Source of the DNA: Sphingobacteriaceae bacterium
Lineage (GTDB): Bacteria; Bacteroidota; Bacteroidia; B-17B0; Aurantibacillaceae
Reading direction: 5' to 3'
Length of the DNA: 39,130 nucleotides
Assembly: GCA_947453445.1 (NCBI GenBank)
Contig: CANGGP010000029.1
Span: forward strand, 1 to 39,130
Shown here: positions 2,265 through 6,367 of the stretch, one piece after another
How the letters are laid out: every line of letters begins with the position of its first letter
Position numbering within the stretch: the first letter of the stretch is position 1
Translations under genes and position numbers: made by a program
The notes under the pieces: model-generated
The model's input: only the letters and a program-made list of their open reading frames with translations
What the model was told of the DNA's origin: nothing
Database searches by the model: none

Positions 2265-2284
2265 CTTTCAAATATTATTGAAAG
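2265..2284. promoter_or_regulatory. Candidate operator dyad in front of the GbsR/MarR-type regulator
   Basis: CTTTCAA-ATATTA-TTGAAAG is a perfect 7-bp inverted repeat with a 6-base spacer. Its right arm overlaps the putative -33 element (ATTG, 2277-2280) of the regulator's promoter, where a repressor would block transcription. MarR/GbsR-type dimers commonly autoregulate through such dyads. A related dyad lies at 2834-2851 before the next gene. No binding data exist, so the assignment is an inference. Confidence 0.5.
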
Positions 2285-2307
2285 TTTAGAAAATAGCCGT
2301 ATATTTG
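2277..2307 (+). promoter_or_regulatory. Promoter of the regulator gene (ATTG-N19-TATATTTG)
   Basis: ATTG (2277-2280), a 19-base spacer and TATATTTG (2300-2307) match the Bacteroidota sigma-A promoter TTTG-N19-TAnnTTTG at all but one position. The -7 box ends only 4 bases before the ATG, so the transcript would start at or next to the start codon, giving a leaderless or nearly leaderless mRNA. Confidence 0.65.
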
Positions 2308-2311
2308 TGGC

Positions 2312-2818
2312 ATGAAATACAACCTCGCAAAAGATAAATTCATACAAACCTGGGGTACATTGGGCAGTAGCTGGGGAATCAGTCGAACAATGGCACAGGT
2401 GCATGCGCTACTTTTAATTAGTCCTGAAGCTTTAAGTGCAGAAGAAATAATGGCAGATTTGAAGATATCTCGCGGCAATGCAAATATGACGATTCGTGAT
2501 TTAATGGGTTGGGGACTTGTTTTTAAAGAATTGCGTGCAGGTGATAGAAAAGAGTATTTTATTGCAGAAAAAGATATTTGGAAAGTAGCAAAACAAATCA
2601 TAAAAGAACGTCGTAAACGTGAAATAGAACCGGTTTTAGCCGTTCTTGAAGAACTAAAGAAAATTGAAGGAGCTAAAGACGATAAAAAAAATAAAGCATT
2701 TGTTGAAGCTGTTACCAACATTGAAAGCGTTGTTGAAAAAGCCGATTTCGCATTAGACAGAGCCATTAAACTCGATGAAAATGCCTTGGTTAATGCTTTG
2801 TTTAAATTATTTAAATAA
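2312..2818 (+). CDS. GbsR/MarR-family winged-helix transcriptional regulator
   Basis: This 168-residue cytoplasmic protein matches the GbsR-like branch of the MarR superfamily. An N-terminal helix ('WGTLGSSWGISR') is followed by a winged helix at about 25-90 with the recognition region 'ISRGNANMTIRDL' and the wing 'ELRAGDRKEYF'. A long charged helical tail (about 90-168) probably dimerises. The family responds to small ligands such as choline in Bacillus GbsR; the ligand here is unknown. A near-leaderless promoter and a dyad lie directly upstream. A second dyad lies in the 52-base gap before the two membrane-protein genes that follow. The simplest reading is a local repressor of itself and of 2871-4570. 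Confidence 0.8.
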   Translation: MKYNLAKDKFIQTWGTLGSSWGISRTMAQVHALLLISPEALSAEEIMADLKISRGNANMTIRDLMGWGLVFKELRAGDRKEYFIAEKDIWKVAKQIIKERRKREIEPVLAVLEELKKIEGAKDDKKNKAFVEAVTNIESVVEKADFALDRAIKLDENALVNALFKLFK

Positions 2819-2833
2819 AAAAATGTCCAAATG

Positions 2834-2851
2834 TTTCAATAAATACTGAAA
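2834..2851. promoter_or_regulatory. Second candidate operator, before the membrane-protein pair
   Basis: TTTCAA-TAAATA-CTGAAA has the same 18-base geometry as the core of the 2265-2284 dyad (TTTCAA-N6-TTGAAA), with one mismatch in the right arm. It sits between the regulator's stop codon and the start codon at 2871. An overlapping alternative dyad (TGTTTC at 2832-2837, GAAACA at 2857-2862) is also possible. Confidence 0.4.
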
Positions 2852-2870
2852 GTACAGAAACAAGATTTAT

Positions 2871-3245
2871 ATGTATACAATTACTGCATATCTCATTTAT
2901 TTAACCTGTAGTTTAATAACTGTATTTATTGTCGGTAAAAATTTGCACAGCAATGGCTTAAATTATTTATTTGGTGAGTGTCCCGACGAAGCCATGAGTA
3001 ATAGCGCCAACAATTTTCTTTATGTTGGTTACTGTCTTTTAAACTCAGCATTCGCATTATTCTTTTTAGAAACGACACCTCAATTAATAAATTCAGCTCA
3101 AGTTGTTGAATTTATCTCAGCTTCTCAGGGAATTATTTTTTTATCCTTAGGGATACTTCATATTTTGAATCTTTTTATTGCTCCAAAAATTATAAATCAA
3201 TTGCTCAAAAAGAAATTATTAACCAATAAAAATCAGAAATCATGA
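2871..3245 (+). CDS. Small integral membrane protein, paralogue of the next gene
   Basis: This 124-residue protein has about three hydrophobic segments (roughly 5-22, 48-68 and 82-105) and a basic C-terminus. I do not recognise a named family. The N-terminal half aligns with the following protein: both show 'AYxIYL', then 'K-x-LH-x-N', then an acidic stretch, 'NN' and an aromatic/Gly-rich helix. The two genes are therefore tandem paralogues. Its stop overlaps the next start (ATGA at 3242-3245), so the pair is translationally coupled. The GbsR-type regulator lies upstream. A two-subunit membrane complex is a plausible inference; its function is unknown. Confidence 0.75.
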   Translation: MYTITAYLIYLTCSLITVFIVGKNLHSNGLNYLFGECPDEAMSNSANNFLYVGYCLLNSAFALFFLETTPQLINSAQVVEFISASQGIIFLSLGILHILNLFIAPKIINQLLKKKLLTNKNQKS

Positions 3246-3637
3246 ATTACCACATCATCGCTTACAGCATTTATTTACCGGTTACTTTCGCACTTAGTAT
3301 CTGGATTGCAAAAAGTTTGCATAAAAATACCAGGGCATTTCTGCTCGAAAAGTTTAATGCCAGAGAAGAATTGGCTTCTGCAACAAATAACCTTATTCAA
3401 ACAGGCTTTTATCTTATTGCTTTGGGTTTTTCATTTATGCACATGCGCATAGAAGGAAAGCTGGAATATGAGAATGGAATTGGTAAATGGGTACAGATGA
3501 ATGGAAGTAAAGAAACCATTGAGACGCTAGCATCAAAACTTGGGAGTTTTACGCTGGTATTAGGTTTGCTATTGTTTTTAAATTTCTTCGTCATGATCAT
3601 GATACAGTCGCCTAAGAAAGTGGAAAAAAAAGTTTAA
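3242..3637 (+). CDS. Small integral membrane protein, second member of the paralogous pair
   Basis: This 131-residue protein has hydrophobic segments at about 5-22, 53-68 and 98-122, and a lysine-rich tail. It shares the N-terminal 'AYSIYL...KSLHKN...SATNNL' pattern with the preceding protein. It also has a longer polar loop ('EGKLEYENGIGKWVQMNGSK') between helices 2 and 3. It starts inside the previous stop codon and ends 15 bases before the epimerase gene, so all belong to one transcription unit. No enzyme motif is visible. Confidence 0.75.
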   Translation: MNYHIIAYSIYLPVTFALSIWIAKSLHKNTRAFLLEKFNAREELASATNNLIQTGFYLIALGFSFMHMRIEGKLEYENGIGKWVQMNGSKETIETLASKLGSFTLVLGLLLFLNFFVMIMIQSPKKVEKKV

Positions 3638-3652
3638 TTTAAAATTGACATC

Positions 3653-4570
3653 ATGAAAAAATTAATAATAGCTGGTGGGTCGGGTTTTTTAGGTAAAGAA
3701 CTGATCGACCATTTAAACAATCAATTCGATAAAATAATTATACTTTCAAGAACAGTCGGTAAAGATGAAGGCAAAATTAACTATCGCAAATGGGATGCGC
3801 GGACTTCAGGAAATTGGAGCGAAGATTTTGAAGAGGCCGATGTAATCATCAATCTCTGTGGAAAAAGTGTTGATTGCAGATACACCAAAAAAAACAAAGC
3901 TGAAATTTTTTCTTCAAGATTGGATTCAACTAAAATAATAGGTGAAGCAATACTAAAATGCAAAAACCCACCAAAGTTGTGGATTAATGGGGCTTCTGCA
4001 ACTATTTATACGCATAGTGAAGATACACCTATGACAGAAAGTACCGGAAAAATAGGTTCAGGTTTTTCAGTGGAAGTTTGCAAAGCATGGGAAAAAACAT
4101 TCAACGAATTTAATTTGCCTCATACCCGAAAAATAAACCTGCGCATTTCGATGGTGTTTGGTAACACAGGGGGTGTTTTTCCGGTTTTAGTAGGATTAAC
4201 AAAAAAAGGGCTAGGAGGCACAATGGGTAAAGGAACCCAACAAGTTAGCTGGATACACATTGATGATTTTTGCGAAAGTGTTAAGTGGATTATAGAAAAT
4301 AAAAACAAATCCGGCGTATACAATCTGGTAGCACCGGAGCCGGTTGTGAACAAAAAATTGATGGCACTTTTACGCCAGTTAACTAGTATTAAAATAGGTC
4401 TGCCTGCCACTTCATGGATGCTTGAAGTCGGGGCTTTCTTTTTAAGAACCGAAACTGAACTGATCCTCAAAAGCCGCTATTCGTATCCTGAAAAACTTTT
4501 GAATGAAGGGTTTAAGTTCAAGTATAACAAAATTGAGGAAGCCTTGATGTCTTTGATAAAACCCCACTAA
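3653..4570 (+). CDS. TIGR01777-family NAD(P)-dependent epimerase (YfcH/SDR39U1-like)
   Basis: This 305-residue protein belongs to the extended short-chain dehydrogenase family. The nucleotide-binding motif 'GGSGFLGKEL' starts at about residue 8, and 'DVIINLCG' begins near residue 63. 'INGASATIYTHS' stands where other SDRs carry the catalytic Ser, and 'RISMVFG' and 'SWIHIDDFCESV' are typical of TIGR01777 (E. coli YfcH, human SDR39U1). The C-terminal roughly 50 residues match the DUF1731 region of this family. The substrate is not known for the family. It is the last gene of the regulator/membrane-pair unit. Confidence 0.85.
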   Translation: MKKLIIAGGSGFLGKELIDHLNNQFDKIIILSRTVGKDEGKINYRKWDARTSGNWSEDFEEADVIINLCGKSVDCRYTKKNKAEIFSSRLDSTKIIGEAILKCKNPPKLWINGASATIYTHSEDTPMTESTGKIGSGFSVEVCKAWEKTFNEFNLPHTRKINLRISMVFGNTGGVFPVLVGLTKKGLGGTMGKGTQQVSWIHIDDFCESVKWIIENKNKSGVYNLVAPEPVVNKKLMALLRQLTSIKIGLPATSWMLEVGAFFLRTETELILKSRYSYPEKLLNEGFKFKYNKIEEALMSLIKPH

Positions 4571-4672: not shown

Positions 4673-6367
4673 ATGTCAGCAACTCCCGAAGGACGTCAGA
4701 TAATTTTTAGCATGGTGAACGTATCGAAGATACATCCACCGCAAAAACAAGTTTTAAAGGACATTTACATTTCGTTTTATTACGGCGCTAAAATTGGCGT
4801 TTTGGGTTTAAACGGTTCAGGTAAATCTTCTTTGTTGCGTATCATGGCCGGTATGGATAAAGATTATATTGGGGAAATTCACCAATCGCCGGGATATTCG
4901 GTGGGCATGTTGGAGCAAGAACCGAAATTGGATGAAAGTAAAACGGTGATTGAAATTGTGCGTGAAGGCGTTCAGAAATACGTGGATATTTTGAATGAAT
5001 TTGAAGAGGTGAACAACAAGTTTGGCGATGAAGAAATTTTGAATGATCCTGATAAAATGGATAAGCTCATTAACCGTCAGGCCCAATTACAAGAACTAAT
5101 TGACCAACATGATTTATGGAATTTAGACAACCGTTTGGAGCGATCGATGGATGCTTTGCGCTGTCCTGAAAGCGATGCGTCGATAAAAGTATTATCAGGT
5201 GGTGAGCGCCGCCGTGTGGCCTTGTGCCGCTTGTTGTTGCAAGAACCCGATATTTTATTGTTGGATGAGCCCACCAACCACTTGGATGCTGAGAGCGTTG
5301 ATTGGTTAGAACAACATTTAAAACAATACAAGGGCACCATTATAGCCGTAACCCACGATAGATATTTCTTAGACAATGTTGCAGGATGGATTTTGGAATT
5401 AGATAGGGGCGAAGGTATTCCTTGGAAAGGCAATTACAGCAGTTGGTTGGAGCAAAAAGGTGCCCGTTTAAAACAAGAAGAAAAAACAGAAAGCAAACGT
5501 CAGAAAACATTGGCGCGTGAATTGGATTGGGTACGTCAGGGTGTTAAAGGCCGCGGTGTGAAACAAAAAGCACGTTTAAACAACTATGAAAAAATGTTGA
5601 ACGAGGATGTAAAATCGAAAGAAGAAAACTTGGAGATTTTTATTCCTAACGGTCCGCGCTTGGGTACAGAAGTCATTGAATCGATTGGTGTTTCGAAAGG
5701 ATTTGGCAACCGCTTGTTGTATGAAGGATTAAACTTTAAGTTACCGCCTGCGGGTATTGTTGGTATTATTGGTCCGAATGGTGCAGGTAAAACCACCTTG
5801 TTTCGCATGATCATGAAGGAGGAGCAACCCAACAGCGGGGAGTTTAAAGTAGGACCAACGGTTAAGTTGGCTTATGTGGATCAAAACCACAAGGAGTTAG
5901 ATCCGAATAAAACTGTGTATGATGTGATTAGTGGGGGGTTAGACAATTTGATGTTGGGTGGTAAAGCCATGAATTCAAGGGCCTATATTTCACGTTTTAA
6001 TTTTGCAGGCAGTGATCAGGGTAAAAAAGTCTCAGTTTTATCAGGTGGTGAGCGTAACCGTTTGCATTTGGCCATGGCTTTAAAAGAAGAAGGTAACGTA
6101 TTGCTGCTTGACGAACCAACCAATGATTTAGATGTAAATACATTGCGTGCTTTGGAAGAGGGTTTAGAAAACTTTGCCGGTTGTGCGGTGATCATTAGTC
6201 ACGACCGTTGGTTTTTAGACCGTGTGTGTACGCACATATTGGCTTTTGAAGGCGATAGCTCTGTTTATTGGTTTGAAGGCGGTTACAGTGAGTATGAAGA
6301 AAACCGCAAAAAACGTGTGGGCAATGTTGAACCAAAACGCCCGCGCTATAAAAAATTGGCGTTATAA
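4673..6367 (+). CDS. ettA: Energy-dependent translational throttle protein EttA (ABC-F ATPase)
   Basis: This 564-residue soluble protein has two ABC ATPase domains and no membrane segments, close to the usual EttA length of about 555. Domain 1 has Walker A 'GLNGSGKS' (45-52), signature 'LSGGE' (174-178) and Walker B 'ILLLDEPTNHLD' (194-205). Domain 2 has 'GPNGAGKT' (367-374), 'LSGGE' (456-460) and 'VLLLDEPTNDLD' (476-487). The acidic insert at about 95-145 corresponds to the EttA arm that contacts the L1 stalk. The charged linker at about 250-325 corresponds to the P-site tRNA interaction motif. EttA binds the ribosomal E site and gates the first steps of elongation according to the ATP/ADP ratio. 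A universal stress protein and a thioesterase follow. Confidence 0.93.
   Translation: MSATPEGRQIIFSMVNVSKIHPPQKQVLKDIYISFYYGAKIGVLGLNGSGKSSLLRIMAGMDKDYIGEIHQSPGYSVGMLEQEPKLDESKTVIEIVREGVQKYVDILNEFEEVNNKFGDEEILNDPDKMDKLINRQAQLQELIDQHDLWNLDNRLERSMDALRCPESDASIKVLSGGERRRVALCRLLLQEPDILLLDEPTNHLDAESVDWLEQHLKQYKGTIIAVTHDRYFLDNVAGWILELDRGEGIPWKGNYSSWLEQKGARLKQEEKTESKRQKTLARELDWVRQGVKGRGVKQKARLNNYEKMLNEDVKSKEENLEIFIPNGPRLGTEVIESIGVSKGFGNRLLYEGLNFKLPPAGIVGIIGPNGAGKTTLFRMIMKEEQPNSGEFKVGPTVKLAYVDQNHKELDPNKTVYDVISGGLDNLMLGGKAMNSRAYISRFNFAGSDQGKKVSVLSGGERNRLHLAMALKEEGNVLLLDEPTNDLDVNTLRALEEGLENFAGCAVIISHDRWFLDRVCTHILAFEGDSSVYWFEGGYSEYEENRKKRVGNVEPKRPRYKKLAL

Follow-up and report, generated by a model that had tools for sequence, protein, structure and literature searches.

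The window analysed here is a stretch of 39,130 nucleotides from a Sphingobacteriaceae bacterium (contig CANGGP010000029.1). Close to its start, the gene of a GbsR-type regulator is flanked by two palindromic sites and followed by an operon encoding two small membrane proteins, MP-A and MP-B, and an oxidoreductase of the short-chain dehydrogenase/reductase (SDR) type. It is very probable that this locus is a conserved regulon whose regulator belongs to a known family, while its targets are new and include a pair of membrane proteins not described before. The features are listed below in window coordinates.

2265..2284, no strand: putative operator O1, CTTTCAA-N6-TTGAAAG (CTTTCAAATATTATTGAAAG), ahead of the regulator gene and covering the -33 region of its promoter
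2278..2307, + strand: candidate regulator promoter, TTG at 2278-2280 with TATATTTG at 2300-2307
2312..2818, + strand: GbsR-type (MarR superfamily) regulator, 168 amino acids (aa), with similarity to Pfam MarR_2 and Mj223 (1KU9)
2834..2851, no strand: putative operator O2, TTTCAATAAATACTGAAA, after the regulator gene and before the membrane-gene operon
2871..3245, + strand: MP-A, the upstream small membrane paralogue (of MP-B), 124 aa
3242..3637, + strand: MP-B, the downstream small membrane paralogue (of MP-A), 131 aa
3653..4570, + strand: TIGR01777 / DUF1731 extended SDR oxidoreductase, 305 aa, TIGR01777 score above the cut-off

The MP-A and MP-B reading frames overlap by 4 base pairs (bp). 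O1 has perfect arms of 7 bp around a 6-bp spacer, and O2 has arms of 5 bp around an 8-bp spacer. The original prediction, which was made from the letters of this DNA, described O1 as a perfect dyad overlapping the regulator promoter, and the present analysis agrees: O1 covers the TTG element, and TATATTTG follows after a spacer of 19 bp, an arrangement that we take to be a promoter of the Bacteroidota type (TTG / TAnnTTTG). O2 had been called a near-copy of the same length. The two sites do share an 18-bp core length, but the arms of O1 are the longer. Exact matches to TTTCA-N8-TGAAA occur only twice in the window (2266-2283 and 2834-2851), one on either side of the regulator gene. Site counts were restricted to such exact matches since dyads with up to two mismatches are at chance level in the window (69 found, 68.9 expected).

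Conservation of the sites was examined at 84 loci, consisting of the window, three loci from the family of the window, and the 80 best of the 315 loci that a search with the regulator yielded. Terrimonas ferruginea, Lacibacter luteus and Taibaiella chishuiensis are cultured species in which that search placed a regulator locus. Left out beforehand were L086 (the same locus as L104), L087 (which lacks a regulator), and L088 and L092, where the regulator lies at a contig end and upstream values are artefactual. An exact site is present within 160 bp upstream of the regulator at 82 of the 84 loci, with a single mismatch in each of the remaining two (L109 and L144). On the downstream side, 62 of the 84 loci have an exact site no more than 560 bp past the regulator stop codon. 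Shuffled sequence (20 shuffles per locus) contained none. Loss of the dyads at orthologous loci had been named in advance as an outcome that would count against the prediction; the dyads are instead conserved. Information content reaches 1.8-2.2 bits at the arm positions and is low further out; the exceptions are the promoter box, a tract rich in A that precedes the site, and a stretch of conserved sequence that follows it. The regulators that share the site fall to as little as 53% identity with the regulator of the window, and relatedness alone therefore explains its conservation poorly. The palindrome is very probably the binding site of the regulator, judging from this pattern of conservation.

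An extension 3' of the dyad (TGAAA.TT.[AG].AA; for example, window 2834-2861) accompanies 52 of the 82 upstream sites and 21 of the 62 downstream sites, and is possibly a third half-site.

The upstream site is closely tied to a promoter element. At 56 of 82 loci the start of the site is followed at 18-45 bp by a TAnnTTTG box, where 1.8 would be expected by shuffling, and the spacing is nearly fixed. Within the window, TATATTTG ends 4 nucleotides (nt) before the regulator start codon. Across the comparison, the box is found within 60 bp at 58 of 84 loci and stands exactly 4 nt before the start codon at 38 of these 58. From this short distance, the regulator mRNA is probably leaderless. A repressor bound to the upstream site would silence the promoter of its own gene. 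O2 ends 19 bp upstream of MP-A.

The link between the regulator and the membrane proteins extends beyond the 84 loci. Of the 87 genomes in the family of the window, 14 carry MP genes, and each of these also belongs to the 19 genomes with a regulator match. A class-wide survey of 396 genomes (regulator threshold E ≤ 1e-20) identified MP genes in 54 genomes and the regulator in 140, with both present in 53 of the 54 MP genomes (Fisher p = 2e-26, a value not to be taken literally since the genomes are related). The exception, G177, has MP genes without a regulator and no exact site in the 5 kilobases read. MP genes lie away from the regulator in ten genomes, as a pair in five and as a single gene in five, and in nine of the ten an exact site ends 9-126 bp before the first of them, compared with 0.0018 per shuffled locus. 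Taibaiella chishuiensis, for instance, has one site before an unlinked MP pair. Two sites are found in Pseudarcicella hirudinis at the start of an unlinked gene pair for a DCC1-type membrane domain and an SDR, one of them overlapping the called start. Retention of the sites before module genes that are not next to the regulator bears out the earlier description of a regulated module. Taken at the level of sequence comparison, the conserved site with its link to the module, the paralogy of the membrane proteins described below, and the co-occurrence with the regulator are established.

Genome-wide scans place the sites in a wider setting. The AT-core pattern occurs exactly twice, both times at the module locus, in two of six genomes scanned (G024 and G049), and the other four have one to three additional sites. 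The genome of the window contains 37 exact N8 sites (control 15); two are O1 and O2, and all eight of the others that were inspected lie inside open reading frames (ORFs). In other genomes, some of the sites that were inspected are intergenic and lie apart from the module. Jiulongibacter sediminis (G089), Emticicia (G087) and Pseudarcicella (G090) each carry between 8 and 12 AT-core sites, where the control pattern gives 0 or 1. Some of these precede genes that, named by eye, we presume to serve histidine synthesis, ribonucleotide reduction, or methyl transfer. The extra sites may mean that the regulon is larger in these genomes or that the palindrome has a second use.

Since the palindromes are short, AT-rich and close to the ends of genes, they could also be read as conserved transcription terminators or RNA elements. 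By eye, a GC-rich hairpin followed by a run of T, resembling a terminator, lies immediately 5' of the downstream site at many Chitinophagaceae loci (for example, L129 and L136); such a hairpin would divide the regulator transcript from the operon transcript, and its position speaks for this alternative. The same core is found, however, at the regulator promoter and before unlinked module genes, its arms are short, and a reversed control pattern, likewise palindromic, was the rarer of the two in all 13 genomes scanned. That the palindromes are anything of this kind instead of operators is considered extremely improbable.

The regulator itself passes the Pfam MarR_2 cut-off (28.6 bits, cut-off 27) and resembles Mj223 (PDB: 1KU9) with an expectation value (E) of 8e-13 over residues 6-146 of 168. 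Its best named model is CudC, a regulator of choline uptake and conversion (44 bits, aligned over 4-141), which falls well below the equivalog cut-off of 218 bits. By these profile scores it is classed as a member of the GbsR family and not as CudC. In a 2018 survey of the family, GbsR-type genes are grouped with osmoprotectant, cydAB, and transporter genes, with an inconsistent picture in Bacteroidetes; a function could not be deduced from the gene neighbourhood for 73 of 179 members, chiefly from Euryarchaeota and Bacteroidetes (PMC6207618). An osmotic-stress regulon like those of Bacillus GbsR and OpuAR, with choline or glycine betaine as inducer, is what the CudC match would favour. Against it stand the distance from the CudC cut-off and the fact that the operon families listed (25 of 47 in one scan) include no gene for betaine synthesis or for an Opu transporter. 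According to the same survey, moreover, the aromatic cage for choline or betaine is missing outside the osmostress group (PMC6207618). An osmotic role is thus judged very unlikely.

The 84 regulators have no cysteine in common: in no column of their alignment do more than 2 of the 84 carry one. For this reason, the regulator is more likely to be released by a small ligand than through thiol sensing. The term ligand-responsive, which the original prediction had used, follows by analogy from the family to which the regulator belongs.

MP-A and MP-B had been proposed to be paralogues on the basis of shared N-terminal wording, and all comparisons concur. The two proteins of the window align in BLASTP with an E of 2e-7 over 72 residues, and a profile-profile comparison gave a probability of 99.9 and an E of 3.7e-33 over 121 columns. 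The pair thus forms one family, where membership in unrelated families would have spoken against the proposal. A tree was built from 120 rows, of which 114 differ and 20 come from single-copy loci (one of these cut by a contig end). It unites all 50 downstream copies in one clade (support 100/97), and every one of the 50 upstream copies falls outside; on each side, 47 of the 50 sequences are distinct. A single downstream clade across all pairs indicates an old duplication and a fixed gene order. Together, these features suggest that MP-A and MP-B may form an obligate heteromer.

Searches against known families gave little to identify the pair. Neither protein has a significant model match in Pfam or NCBIfam, with none above the cut-off in Pfam, and a sequence search of the PDB with the MP-B alignment returned nothing at E ≤ 1. 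The sole Pfam match at 0.01 among 20 MP-B relatives was to Saf_2TM, in one member (E = 0.009). Other small membrane proteins at these loci (clusters m10, m27, m51, m22, f23, and f74) were considered as diverged MPs and rejected, as profile comparison supported none of them; on that comparison, they are classed as small membrane proteins of other kinds.

A MarR-superfamily repressor before two small, tandem, paralogous membrane proteins is the classic layout of a paired efflux pump. The same circuit could thus control a small paired transporter, like the SMR proteins EbrAB, that is induced by a toxic compound, with the accompanying enzymes serving in detoxification. That MP-A precedes MP-B in all 50 pairs fits such a pump. 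The sequences do not: no Pfam SMR match was obtained for the pair of the window at E ≤ 1 or for 20 MP-B relatives at 0.01. The AlphaFold model of MP-B, a weak one with a mean predicted local distance difference test (pLDDT) score of 68, has three helices in place of four, and the desaturases and CMAS-type methyltransferases in some operons (see below) are unlike detoxification genes. Paired efflux is therefore held to be improbable, if less so than an osmotic role.

The last gene of the operon had been described as an epimerase of unknown substrate. The protein belongs to a named family, scoring 267.4 bits against TIGR01777 (cut-off 207.35) and also passing the DUF1731 cut-off. Its nearest solved structure by sequence is SDR39U1 (PDB: 4B4O, E = 5e-25), and 3OH8 is also similar. 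GGSGFLG is visible at the N-terminus of the protein, and we take it to be a nucleotide-binding motif of the kind expected in an NAD(P)-dependent enzyme.

The partners of these genes were tabulated in 148 operons, a set that excludes the window and in which some genomes are entered twice. MP genes occur in 74 operons, the SDR in 67, a DCC1-type membrane protein in 35, the small membrane protein m10 in 26, SRPBCC proteins in 20, and DUF2071 proteins in 14; OsmC and DCC1-like proteins are present in some. DUF2071 has been linked to the acetoacetate-decarboxylase fold, with the active-site lysine missing (PMC4520260). From 85 unassigned operon proteins, 76 were scanned, with nine omitted as near-copies from L120 or fragments at locus ends, and a CMAS-type protein from L083 was added by hand as a 77th. 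Without this addition, FA_desaturase is found in 4 of 76 and a CMAS-type methyltransferase in 3 of 76. A luciferase domain is found in 3 of the 77. Three DEAD-box helicases and a few housekeeping enzymes in the scan are plainly read-through neighbours.

The control was a random sample of 140 from the 540 neighbours outside the operons, of which 137 were scanned after three module-family proteins had been removed by hand. The families listed for this control, 25 of 126, include neither FA_desaturase nor CMAS; the smallest listed count is 2, so that two or fewer of either are possible. General methyltransferase domains occur in 4 of 137 control neighbours and 4 of 76 operon proteins; given these counts, the CMAS type alone is informative. 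A profile built from four of the desaturases matched proteins at six loci, all of them operon members and four of them its own seeds, and matched none of the other ORFs at the loci. The CMAS profile gave close matches in five genomes, all adjoining the module and mostly its own seeds. One locus, L372, encodes a phospholipid-methyltransferase domain protein with a DCC1 match below the cut-off. A minority of operons, those with desaturases or CMAS-like methyltransferases, thus lend some support to the description of the module as possibly lipid-modifying; the operon of the window has neither enzyme.

Some neighbouring genes were noted in passing. At L088 (G001:C418, 1463-2256), a desaturase-like gene is split across two overlapping ORFs, which may reflect an assembly error or a pseudogene. 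A tail of four genes recurs in Chitinophagaceae after the module or after a bare regulator (for example, L126 8722-12075); at L126, these encode a CoA-binding protein, an unknown protein, a reprolysin-like protein with a weak type IX secretion system tail, and an RNase H-like protein. The tail was set aside as neighbourhood. In the window, the gene directly upstream (488-2107) encodes a Kelch-repeat protein that ends in a sorting domain for type IX secretion and shows no sign of module membership, and the downstream neighbour of the module is ettA (4673-6367).

Modified acyl chains, an SDR, and thiol-redox proteins could also serve to shield the membrane from reactive oxygen, as in an oxidative or photo-oxidative stress regulon like that of LitR or ChrR. 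The kinds of genes resemble the Pseudomonas PmlR1 region, where the furan fatty acid synthase UfaM is accompanied by an FAD-dependent oxidoreductase and a short-chain dehydrogenase (PMC9758184), and the DCC1-like and OsmC proteins of some operons fit as well. The regulator, however, is of the MarR/GbsR kind, with no match to a MerR model in the Pfam and NCBIfam scans and no conserved cysteine, and photolyase is not among the 25 of 47 families listed for the 77 operon proteins. The probability of such a stress regulon is accordingly put low, level with that of paired efflux.

From the comparisons above, we infer a different mechanism. The GbsR-type regulator would be a dimeric repressor that binds TTTCA-N8-TGAAA, blocking its own promoter from O1, over the -33 element, and the MP-A/MP-B/SDR operon from O2, until it is released by a small ligand and not through a conserved cysteine. 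The induced genes would remodel membrane lipids. MP-A and MP-B would act as an obligate membrane heteromer and the SDR would perform an NAD(P)-dependent redox step, to which other genomes may add a DCC1-like membrane thiol-oxidoreductase, ligand-binding proteins of the SRPBCC and DUF2071 types, and desaturases or cyclopropane-synthase-like methyltransferases. Confidence in the regulatory architecture is high. The lipid function is tentative and falls a little short of an even chance, and for the proposal as a whole, a self-repressing GbsR-type repressor in control of a membrane-lipid modification module, the balance is about even.

Several observations weigh against this proposal. On the regulatory side, the exact downstream site is absent at 22 of 84 loci, and TAnnTTTG was found on neither side of the downstream site at any of 62 loci. 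The regulator is commoner (140 genomes) than the MP genes (54), and the unlinked MP gene of G199 has no site. A site also lies within 250 bp of 15 of the 99 non-module genes of the same loci, which reflects at least partly shared intergenic regions and unlabelled operon genes. Many of the 12 AT-core sites of J. sediminis (control 0) are beside genes with no visible module link, and intergenic sites in several genomes precede genes with no visible link to lipids. On the functional side, most operons, like that of the window, encode neither a desaturase nor a methyltransferase, and the CMAS profile also matches, more weakly, ten methyltransferases outside the operons. The MP-B model is weak, and a Foldseek search with it against the PDB gave 0 of 90 matches at E ≤ 0.001.

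Among the papers listed by a literature search, with subscription papers mostly outside its reach, none describes the module as far as title and abstract opening show. The conserved site, the linked genes, and the co-occurrence tie the Bacteroidota branch of GbsR-type regulators to a membrane module, which addresses the gap left by the 2018 survey and suggests a probable role for regulators that had lacked an assigned function. If the proposed mechanism is true, MP-A/MP-B, TIGR01777, the DCC1-like membrane proteins, and DUF2071 gain a shared, testable context, and the site allows the regulon to be listed across many genomes. A bolder version, regarded as rather unlikely, is that the Bacteroidota GbsR-type regulators are a lipid-sensing branch that acts through one class-wide operator on a two-subunit membrane complex of MP-A and MP-B, not described before, and that this complex, the TIGR01777 SDR, and a DCC1-type thiol oxidoreductase together make or repair a modified membrane lipid. 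If so, the orphan TIGR01777 family would gain its pathway.

The system may be compared with four known ones. With the GbsR family (GbsR, OpuAR, OpcR, CudC, and CydE, with the Mj223 fold), it shares similarity to Mj223 and CudC over most of the length of the regulator and a presumed target operon that adjoins the regulator gene. It differs in its targets, namely the membrane pair, the SDR, DCC1, and some lipid enzymes, and in the regulator, which has its own site TTTCA-N8-TGAAA and a score far under the CudC cut-off. The SDR resembles the TIGR01777 / SDR39U1 group (relatives of YfcH and ThyD) by the family cut-offs it passes and by its similarity to 4B4O and 3OH8; its setting is different, under a GbsR-type regulator and beside a membrane protein pair. 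The tandem arrangement of two small paralogous membrane proteins beside a repressor gene recalls the paired SMR transporters of the EbrAB type, from which the MP pair departs in lacking a sequence match, in the three helices of the weak MP-B model, and in its other partner genes. In the LitR/PplR light regulon of Pseudomonas with UfaM, an SDR and an enzyme that modifies fatty acids are likewise brought together in a module under one regulator. The GbsR module differs from it in regulator class, in its membrane proteins, and in having no photolyase among the families listed.

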